Of a stretch of DNA of 64,000 nt, positions 38,605 through 44,303 are shown piece by piece. A program made the position numbers and the translations under genes. The notes below the pieces were generated by a model. That model ran no database searches. It worked only from the letters and a program-made list of their open reading frames with translations, and had not been told where the DNA came from. How positions within the stretch are numbered: position 1 is the stretch's first letter; every line of letters begins with the position of its first letter. The stretch lies in assembly GCF_000717915.1 (NCBI RefSeq), contig NZ_JOCX01000031.1:62001-126000 (forward strand), written 5' to 3'. The DNA comes from Streptomyces sp. NRRL S-244 (GTDB taxonomy: Bacteria > Actinomycetota > Actinomycetes > Streptomycetales > Streptomycetaceae).

Positions 38605-42508
<3,904 letters not shown>

Positions 42509-42569: not shown

Positions 42570-42836
42570 TCAGGGGGCGACGGTGTAGCCGTGCGCGGCG
42601 AAGGGGGTGTCCACCCGGGTGAGCAGGGTGCGCATCTGCTCGAGGGCCGAGGCGTCGCAGTCGGCTCGTACGAAGAGGAAGAGGTCCAGACCGTGCTCGG
42701 TGGGGCGGGGCCGGATGTGTTCCAGGCCCTCTGCCTGCGTGGCGTGCGCCCAGAGCAGGTCGTGGATGAGGTGGGAGGACCCCGCGGGGGCCGGCCCGGG
42801 GAGGGTGCGGTGCAGGGAGGCTTGGATCACCCGCAC
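42570..42836 (-). CDS. Small protein of unknown function downstream of the VIGWD peptide gene
   Basis: An 88-residue soluble protein, compact and without a signal peptide (RVIQASLHRTLPGPAPAGSS, ADCDASALEQMRTLLTRVD). It starts at GTG 42836, only six bases after the stop of the VIGWD-repeat peptide gene, so the two are surely cotranscribed. The predicted alternation of strands and helices could be a ferredoxin-like fold. I do not recognise the family. A chaperone, immunity or processing role for the peptide is possible but unproven. Confidence 0.65.
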   Translation of the reverse strand: MRVIQASLHRTLPGPAPAGSSHLIHDLLWAHATQAEGLEHIRPRPTEHGLDLFLFVRADCDASALEQMRTLLTRVDTPFAAHGYTVAP

Positions 42837-42842
42837 GGGTCG

Positions 42843-43043
42843 TCAGTCCCAGCCGATGACGCGCTTGTTCGCGGCCGGGGAGTCCCACCCGATGACGGAG
42901 GCGGAGGCGGAGACCGCGTGGTACGAGTCCCAGCCGATCACGCCGGCGGGTGCGGCAGGAGCGGCGACGGCGGCGGAGGCGGCGCCGATCGAGAACAGAG
43001 CGGTGAGGCCGGCGGCAGCGATGAAGTGCGTGGTGCGAGACAT
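42843..43043 (-). CDS. Exported peptide with three VIGWD repeats
   Basis: The 66-residue precursor has a clear Sec signal (MSRTTHFIAAAGLTALFSIG, then AASAAVAAPAAPA) and a mature part of about 33 residues that is almost wholly VIGWD-S repeats: GVIGWDSYHAVSASAS, VIGWDSPAANKR, and a terminal VIGWD. A dibasic KR precedes the last copy. The ATG follows AGGGGAA at 5 bases. It is followed at six bases by the 88-residue gene, then by two secreted cell-wall enzymes, and is divergent from a TrmB/LuxR-type regulator. I know of no characterised homologue. The repeat layout suggests a processed signal peptide or a small surface peptide (inference). Confidence 0.75.
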   Translation of the reverse strand: MSRTTHFIAAAGLTALFSIGAASAAVAAPAAPAGVIGWDSYHAVSASASVIGWDSPAANKRVIGWD

Positions 43044-43316
43044 GACGTTCCCCTGAGCGTGAAAGCGGTGCGGTGCGGGTGGTGCGCGCTGCTCCGGTCC
43101 GGCCTTTCGGCCCTGGCCTGGGGTGGGGCTTCCGTGCCCCGCCGTCCCGGTGATCAATATCTTGCTGCCCGGGTGGGAGGCCCGGAAGGGGTTCGGGCTG
43201 GCACCGTGCTGCCCGGCAGCTTGGTGTCACCTGACCGAAATGCCGCAGGGGCCGACTAAGATCATCCAATGGCCGTCTGACCTGGCCGTCTGCACGAAAC
43301 AGCTGGGGGGCTGCGC
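43044..43316. promoter_or_regulatory. Divergent promoter region of the VIGWD peptide and LuxR-type genes
   Basis: A 273-base gap. An AT-rich island TGATCAATATCTTG (43151-43164) with a TGATCA palindrome stands out in the GC-rich background and could supply the -10 of the peptide gene. Toward the regulator, CTAAGATCATCC (about 43256) is a possible -10 region. No confirmed operator. Confidence 0.4.
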
Positions 43317-44303
43317 ATGCTGGAAGCGTTGGGATTCGATGGGGACGTGGAGTCCGTGTACCGGGGGATGCTGGCGGATCCGTCGGGCGGGCTGGCCGAA
43401 CTGGGCGCCCGCATCGCGCTCCCGGAGGCCCGCGTACGGGACGCGCTGGACCGGCTCGTCGACCTGAACCTCCTGACCTCCTCGCGCGAGAGCTCGGGCG
43501 GGCTGCGGGCCGTCAGCCCCGAGGTGGGTCTGGAACTGATCCTGCGCCGCCAGGAGGAGGACCTGGCGCGGCGCCAGCAGCAGCTCGCCGCGAGCAAGGC
43601 GGCGGCCGCGCAGGCCATCGCCGAGTACGCCGGACTGCGGCCGAACACGGAGACCGACGGCACCGAGCGGCTCGTGGGGATCGACGCCATCCAGGCGCGG
43701 CTGGAGGTCCTGACCCAGGACCTCGCCGAGGAATGCCTCGCCATCATCCCGGGCGGGGCGCAGTCACAGGCCAGCCTGGACGCATCACGCCCGCTGGACG
43801 AACGGGCCATGGCCCAGGGCGTCGACCTCCGGGCCGTCTACCAGGACAGCGTCCGCAACGACCCGGCCACGCTGGGCTACGCCCAGTGGACCACCGAGCG
43901 CGGCGGCCAGGTGCGCACGAGCCCGATGCTGCCGCCGCGGCTGCTGGTCTTCGACCGGACGACCGCCATCGTCCCGATCGACCCGGCCAACTCCCGGCTC
44001 GGCGCGCTGTGCACGACGGCGCCGGGCATCGTCGCCTCGCTGATCACGCTGTTCGAGCAGACCTGGGAAACGGCGGTACCGCTCGGCGCCGACCTCAAGC
44101 AGCCGGCGCAGGACGGCATCACCGCCGGCGAGCGGGAGCTGCTGAAGCTGCTGGCGTCCGGGCTGACGGACGAGGCCGCCGGCAAGCGCCTGGGCGTCTC
44201 GCTGCGCACCGTACGCCGCCAGATGGCCGGCCTGATGGAACGCCTGCACGCCACGAGCCGTTTCGAAGCCGGCCTCAAGGCAGCCCAGCGCGGCTGGCTG
44301 TGA
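43317..44303 (+). CDS. TrmB-like/LuxR-type transcriptional regulator
   Basis: The 328-residue regulator has an N-terminal TrmB-like winged helix (about 10-60; LGARIALPEARVRDALDRLV) and a coiled-coil stretch (LILRRQEEDLARRQQQLAAS). A phospholipase-D-like sensory middle follows, then a C-terminal LuxR helix-turn-helix (about 265-325; LLKLLASGLTDEAAGKRLGV, SLRTVRRQMAGLMERLHATS). CTGGGGGG precedes the ATG. It is divergent from the VIGWD peptide gene, whose operon it may control. The combination of TrmB head and LuxR tail is common in Streptomyces, but ligands are unknown. Confidence 0.85.
   Translation: MLEALGFDGDVESVYRGMLADPSGGLAELGARIALPEARVRDALDRLVDLNLLTSSRESSGGLRAVSPEVGLELILRRQEEDLARRQQQLAASKAAAAQAIAEYAGLRPNTETDGTERLVGIDAIQARLEVLTQDLAEECLAIIPGGAQSQASLDASRPLDERAMAQGVDLRAVYQDSVRNDPATLGYAQWTTERGGQVRTSPMLPPRLLVFDRTTAIVPIDPANSRLGALCTTAPGIVASLITLFEQTWETAVPLGADLKQPAQDGITAGERELLKLLASGLTDEAAGKRLGVSLRTVRRQMAGLMERLHATSRFEAGLKAAQRGWL

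Follow-up and report, generated by a model that had tools for sequence, protein, structure and literature searches.

What does a small exported-type peptide do that carries one pentapeptide, VIGWD, three times over and is encoded back to back with a regulator? The question is raised by a locus of Streptomyces sp. NRRL S-244, in a 64,000-nucleotide stretch of contig NZ_JOCX01000031.1 (positions 62,001 to 126,000) that we call the window and whose own numbering is used throughout. The peptide gene (42843..43043, minus strand) encodes a Sec-type signal sequence and then the three VIGWD cores; a gene for an 88-aa protein (42570..42836, minus strand) begins with GTG 6 nt past its stop codon, and the gene of a 328-aa regulator (43317..44303, plus strand) lies divergently on the opposite strand. 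Judged from sequence, these three genes form a recurrent module that belongs to a large family. We propose that the locus is a peptide-pheromone module, in which a core containing tryptophan (Trp) would be re-imported and read by the cytosolic regulator, and we give this reading a probability of about two in three.

The propeptide, MSRTTHFIAAAGLTALFSIGAASAAVAAPAAPAGVIGWDSYHAVSASASVIGWDSPAANKRVIGWD, is 66 residues long. Its signal sequence (MSRTTHFIAAAGLTALFSIGAASAAVAA, about residues 1-28; 42960..43043, minus strand) was called by inspection and with a simple rule on hydrophobicity, with an inferred cleavage point, and the leader is conserved in homologues. Core 1 occupies residues 35-39 (42927..42941), core 2 residues 50-54 (42882..42896) and core 3 residues 62-66 (42846..42860), all on the minus strand; the last, preceded by a dibasic KR, abuts the stop codon at the C-terminal end, which is the usual place of the core in relatives. 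Synonymous codons differ among the three (GTGATCGGCTGGGAC, GTCATCGGGTGGGAC and GTCATCGGCTGGGAC). An earlier note on this DNA had described this exported-type peptide with its cores and KR, the next gene six bases on, two secreted cell-wall genes behind it and the divergent regulator, and the positions and domains of the open reading frames (ORFs) confirm that description.

The peptide is more than a chance ORF: a search of 5.8 billion proteins with it returned 15 proteins at E<=1 among 47 candidates, and all 11 named ones are from Streptomyces. Leaving out P0009, evidently frameshifted, 14 of 14 end exactly in VIGWD, nine with three copies and five with two, and KR stands ahead of the last core in 10 of the 14; most further relatives are without it, so that KR is not a general feature. 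When an alignment of these matches was used as the query against 392 genomes of the genus, 215 matched at E<=1, most of them weakly. The 30 loci fetched from that search contained relatives in which VIGWD occurs 2-5 times; peptides with other cores appeared there too, with weak scores (VISWD, GIGWD, SINWD x4, DIGW x11, ten of these DIGWD, and DSGWD). A peptide spread widely without its neighbours, the outcome that the earlier note had set against its proposal, was not seen: the regulator lay within 3 kb in 15 of the 16 loci among these 30 that had a recognised peptide, L011 being the exception, and the survey was therefore restarted from the regulator.

The regulator was found at E<=1e-60 in 132 of 295 genomes of the genus, and 15 chosen genomes held 5-14 family matches each at E<=1e-10. 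The regulator-hit loci numbered 159, or 148 distinct ones once identical regulators were removed, and represent part of the matches listed (30 of 121 from the 15-genome scan; 28 new loci and 80 stretches from the 295-genome scan); 12 of the 148 were kept under the peptide search, five of them found by that search alone. Small exported-type ORFs were picked by a rule blind to Trp, which asked for 30-130 aa, a basic start, a hydrophobic segment and third codon positions rich in GC; it returned 98 ORFs on the divergent strand in 94 of the 148 loci. Trp is exactly penultimate in 64 of these 98 and lies within the last three residues in 69 loci; without the five loci known from the peptide search alone the count is 61 of 93 (143 loci). 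By the same rule a penultimate Trp occurs in 3 of 43 ORFs on the regulator's strand (L146, L151 and L167, all of the same core type) and in 0 of 9 ORFs from shuffled sequence. The rest of the loci and of the window gave 112 ORFs, 16 of them with a penultimate Trp: nine are ends of the regulator frame itself (..GWL or ..GWV), three are member-like (L089, L041, L047) and four are background. The background rate of a penultimate Trp is about 4 of 100. The residue after the Trp (n=64) is Q in 31, D in 21, G in 5, S in 4, E in 2 and A in 1.

Inspection by eye reduced the rule-found peptides from 85 to 79 (76 divergent, three on the same strand), the picks at L069, L094, L098, L099, L118 and L168 being false or the wrong ORF, and added 18, among them L098, L099 and L118 with another ORF, for a total of 97 peptide loci among the 148. 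Relatives of the 88-aa protein are present in 86 of the 148 loci according to an iterated profile, and 85 of the 87 ORFs of this family lie opposite to the regulator strand. The profile was iterated on the same loci (46, 82, 87 and 87 ORFs, the last few at E 1e-8 to 7e-5) and can for that reason pull in weak members. Among the peptide loci, 71 of 97 carry an 88-aa relative and 26 have none in the stretch examined, about 1.5-2 kb upstream. The earlier note had envisaged a short signal cut from repeats and paired with the 88-aa protein and the regulator. The pairing is borne out across genomes; the repeats and the KR turned out not to be essential, because the common feature is a Trp near the C-terminus, often in a single copy. 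Its other suggestion, a surface peptide that assembles itself, is hard to reconcile with members that have a single copy, such as ...DMIWQ. For the 88-aa protein it had suggested processing, transport or neutralisation of the peptide as candidate roles.

The cores vary widely from locus to locus and little within a peptide. The 97 loci contain 53 different five-residue Trp cores, for example VIGWD, SINWD, GIGWD, DAGWQ, DMIWQ, TTVWE and DPGWS, and core agreement within a peptide is 0.91 (46 peptides, before cleaning) or 0.93 (the cleaned 43) vs 0.28 between different peptides. Copies change together, as in a clade with TTAWE twice in L097, TTVWE four times in L117 and TTGWQ twice in L120. The core also follows the regulator tree, on which it requires 56 changes vs a lowest value of 78 and a mean of 82 in 100 shuffles, the tree being a FastTree reconstruction with several long branches. 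Among 149 pairs at 70-80% regulator identity, just 23% have the core in common.

The structure model of the regulator is confident (predicted local distance difference test, pLDDT, 92.3) and, together with the sequence, places a TrmB winged helix at about residues 2-69, a long helix at 68-105, a PLD/TrmB-like sensor at about 111-258 and a LuxR/GerE helix-turn-helix (HTH) at about 265-328. Among Pfam families, GerE matches at E=5.7e-6 and TrmB at just E=0.013, with TrmB reaching E<=0.001 in 38 of 66 family members; by sequence, TrmBL2 weakly matches residues 10-253 (E 0.005) and NarL/DevR-type HTHs match residues of about 257-321. At E<=1 the window regulator matches ten Pfam families, and the 66 members match 30; no TPR is among the former or among the 25 listed of the latter. 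By eye no membrane segment is seen, and the ligand should therefore reach the cytosol. An imperfect palindrome (43199..43229, no strand) with 15-nt arms that are 80% complementary lies between the divergent genes and is a likely operator by prediction. Its consensus in the clade of the window is approximately CACCAAGnTGCCtGGCACCTTGGTG; with up to three mismatches allowed it is present in 16 of the 148 loci, of which 15 belong to that clade of 22 loci, and the exact pattern is found once in the whole genome, which points to local autoregulation.

An exported propeptide, a C-terminal core, a regulator with a ligand-type domain, a palindrome and variants together make, by analogy, the layout of an import-type pheromone system. 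The steps that would join them, from export, cleavage, import and binding to the response, the operon, the direction of its regulation and the part played by the 88-aa protein, we infer as follows. The 66-aa propeptide would be exported through Sec, and proteases would release the C-terminal Trp core, a peptide of five to seven residues (about VIGWD) of which each precursor holds three. Once free, this peptide would accumulate, re-enter through an oligopeptide permease and, in the cytosol, bind to the divergent regulator at its PLD/TrmB-like sensor domain. The latter protein may then act at the intergenic palindrome and switch a peptide-88-aa-CHAP-transglycosylase operon, leading to positive feedback and a cell-wall response. 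The 88-aa protein, confidently modelled with a ferredoxin-like fold (pLDDT 94.0; no informative structural neighbours were found for it), is most likely a cytosolic accessory of the circuit and may bind the peptide or the regulator. As the core changed together with its regulator from locus to locus, private channels, or pherotypes, could have arisen.

Among known systems, the closest in layout are the RRNPP systems of the Bacillota (Rap, Rgg, NprR, PlcR, PrgX; SHP/Rgg, ComRS), in which the active part is C-terminal and variants are strain-specific. There too a small exported propeptide is encoded beside the gene of a cytosolic regulator, with several systems per genome and on plasmids (PMC10075063, PMC13220807). 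The receptor described here differs in having no TPR match and instead a TrmB winged helix, a PLD/TrmB-like sensor and a LuxR HTH, and the module differs in its Trp core, an often present third gene for an 88-aa protein and its occurrence in Actinomycetota. The module would work like RRNPP systems but is not one of them, its receptor having another fold. ComX/ComQ/ComP of Bacillus also uses a linear pheromone, with a Trp near the variable C-terminus and with pherotypes, but ComX requires a prenyltransferase and a membrane histidine kinase. Neither a ComQ-like prenyltransferase nor a ComP-like kinase is next to the window peptide, whose neighbours are the 88-aa gene, the CHAP gene, the transglycosylase gene and the one-component regulator; an ORF that by eye resembles a sensor kinase is found some 5 kb away, at 47.6-50.3 kb. 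TrmB and TrmBL2 share with the window regulator the TrmB winged helix and the PLD-like ligand domain, whereas the additional C-terminal LuxR HTH and the small secreted-type peptide as partner set the latter apart. LuxR-type acyl-homoserine-lactone receptors have an autoinducer-binding domain before the HTH; that domain is not one of the ten Pfam matches of the window regulator (E<=1), and the region is modelled as a PLD-like fold.

Streptomyces is a main source of antibiotics, and its cell-cell signals are mostly known as small lactones. According to one paper, the signals of Actinomycetota are typically small molecules made by enzymes (PMC10075063). BldK of S. coelicolor, however, implies an imported signalling peptide in Streptomyces: it imports a peptide of 655 Da that is presumed to act as a signal, and the poor conservation of its binding proteins led the authors to suggest strain-specific peptides (PMC9640686). 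Some of the Trp-core peptides may be the signals thought to be taken up by BldK-type importers. We know of no report of a precursor gene for the BldK peptide signal. Literature on Streptomyces peptide signalling, TrmB/LuxR regulators and BldK, partially covered, yielded no description of the module, and in a similarly partial search the core strings occurred only in papers that were unrelated, judged by title; the family of Trp-core peptides and regulators is apparently undescribed so far. If our reading is true, the ligand is encoded beside its receptor and can be read from the last five or so residues, so that a peptide could be ordered and tested strain by strain, and a new set of peptide switches would come with a new receptor fold for peptides.

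A number of observations weigh against the pheromone reading. TrmB relatives are known to bind sugars or DNA, not peptides, and no importer or dedicated protease is seen adjoining the module. The likeness of cores within a peptide is partly due to young duplication or conversion: the DNA is identical in 56 of 122 core pairs, and the fourfold third bases of core pairs agree at 0.75 vs a chance value of 0.44. Linkage of the two genes would by itself lead one to expect that the core tracks the regulator tree. A core is shared by one of 34 module pairs within genomes vs 134 of 4622 between genomes; with sharing equally frequent in both, there is no sign of selection against crosstalk. Nor is the sensor domain clearly the part that changes with the core, its relative divergence, uncorrected for descent, being 0.99 in different-core and 0.90 in same-core pairs. 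Neither the rule nor inspection revealed a peptide in 51 of the 148 regulator loci; 15 of the 51 carry the 88-aa family, and two of them (L036, L037) are among the five regulator paralogues of the source genome. Of 22 further named loci, nine gave no peptide. Conversely, the L011 peptide, with four VIGWD copies, has no family regulator on a stretch of 20 kb, and its genome holds only distant ones. This orphan (L011 / L240, G330:C1) sits between ribonucleotide reductase-like and deformylase-like genes, labelled by eye; an eavesdropper, a decoy and a relic are candidate readings of it.

Alternatively, the secreted Trp peptide might be a toxin that inhibits competitors, with the cytosolic 88-aa protein as immunity and the regulator in control of production. 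A coupled partner without an export signal and variable cores also occur in bacteriocin systems, and the regulator family is carried by plasmids (matches on 121 plasmid records at E<=1e-10). However, no 88-aa relative was found within about 1.5-2 kb upstream in 21 of the 79 kept rule-found peptide loci, nor in nine loci of a distant clade, most of which have an MLRSVLA-like leader; moreover, the peptide pairs with a one-component regulator bearing a ligand-type domain, and for a toxin, a core of some five residues whose end is fixed is small. We regard this explanation as improbable.

It is likewise improbable that the conserved Trp and its neighbour are the modification site of a ribosomally synthesised and post-translationally modified peptide (RiPP), the mature product being a modified antibiotic or signal. 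The penultimate position of the Trp in most members is in line with this, as are the modified Trp near the C-terminus of Bacillus ComX and one of five plasmid stretches, L181 (NZ_CP130682, a 56-kb linear plasmid), where the regulator and an 88-aa relative lie beside two ATP-grasp genes and a major facilitator superfamily (MFS) transporter; no peptide was recognised there. Against it, the leader is of export type, and no modifying enzyme was recognised among linked genes, either beside the window peptide, as the earlier note had said of RiPP maturases, or in the plasmid stretches L178, L179 and L182 (L180 is unannotated). A modified pheromone would in any case be a sub-case of the pheromone reading.

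The genes downstream of the 88-aa gene suggest a third explanation, in which the peptide acts at the wall, either by coating it or by binding or inhibiting the cell-wall enzymes encoded with it, and the regulator senses only the state of the wall. After a 61-nt gap an ATG opens a gene for a secreted-type protein with CHAP, Ig (Big_7) and FG-GAP parts (39722..42508, minus strand), and the next gene of the presumed operon encodes a secreted-type transglycosylase-like (Transglycosylas, PF06737) and FG-GAP protein (38605..40455, minus strand). A plasmid of Streptomyces sp. NBC_00998 has the complete window arrangement, with both cell-wall genes in the same order and GIGWD x3, and tblastn detected CHAP and/or transglycosylase relatives in 6 of 21 other named loci (L179, L183, L184, L186, L188, L194). 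In the stretches examined, though, the remaining 15 gave no match to either enzyme, and they include loci that have both peptide and regulator (L182, L185, L190, L191, L195, L197); the cores, moreover, follow the regulator. We regard a cell-wall function of this kind as improbable. Finally, a leader ORF without any secreted role, whose translation or nascent peptide tunes the next gene, would suit the 6 nt between the peptide stop and the 88-aa start and the tiny, leaderless members such as MFFAFFGLIWD, but is highly improbable given that most recognised members are of export type, that 43 have repeated cores, which a nascent-chain device does not need, and that in some loci the peptide shares the regulator's strand or no 88-aa gene is recognised with it.

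Returning to the pheromone module and its spread, the source genome has five convincing regulator paralogues (33-48% identity, E<=1e-24) and two further matches in the HTH only. Three paralogues have a divergent exported-type peptide, one ending in TYGLIWD and directly followed by an 88-aa relative, one with DPGWS twice and one with DSGWR twice. Class-wide, the regulator is found at E<=1e-30 in 80 of 296 genomes and 23 of 114 genera. Outside the genus, peptides were read only in a few loci, namely L041 (..GLIWD), L044 and L212 (..NLGWQDRTEP). A peptide was also recognised in 13 of the 22 further named loci. Two of these are on plasmids, pCLA1 of S. clavuligerus (DLPWT x2) and one of S. europaeiscabiei (TTGWQ); others are from Streptomyces wedmorensis (GIIWD), S. 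xanthochromogenes (SISWD), S. actuosus (VIGWD), Actinospica durhamensis (..CAGCWS) and Kitasatospora, where two of three loci have one (GIGWD, SIGWD). We lean towards the view that Streptomyces and its relatives harbour an unrecognised pheromone superfamily with cytosolic TrmB-LuxR receptors (5-14 matches per genome in the 15 genomes), a superfamily that comprises modules on giant plasmids, sub-types that lack a leader or contain cysteine, and dozens of short Trp cores serving as private channels.

In three loci (L096, L103, L106) a leaderless MFFAFFGLIWD ORF lies directly ahead of an 88-aa relative; such ORFs resemble the short hydrophobic peptides of streptococci. A pair of cysteines surrounds the core in L044 (ACAGCWAQA) and, at the C-terminus, in L196 of Actinospica (CAGCWS), and these members are perhaps a disulphide-closed variant. 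The distant clade with an MLRSVLA-like leader and without an 88-aa relative (L019, L026, L035, L061, L064, L067, L068) mostly has internal repeats, for example DIGW x11, DSTW x9 and NTSWP x2, and most of its peptides end away from the core, L061 ending at it. In L026 and L035 a different small protein takes the place of the 88-aa protein, that of L035 with a sub-threshold Rieske match.

The window regulator itself ends in ..RGWL (44283-44303), with G326 and W327 nearly invariant (90% or more) in the 66 family members; this end resembles xGWx cores, perhaps by coincidence or perhaps because it mimics the ligand from within the receptor. In the source genome, the DPGWS module (L034, G000:C21) adjoins genes for a membrane protein and a ubiquitin-like domain protein, which resemble an ESX/type VII locus. 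In the window, the CHAP/FG-GAP frame (about 39722-40674) continues for some 300 codons past its FG-GAP part and over the start of the transglycosylase gene, which is in another frame; a Pro-rich junction near 40.6 kb perhaps marks a deletion of the normal end.
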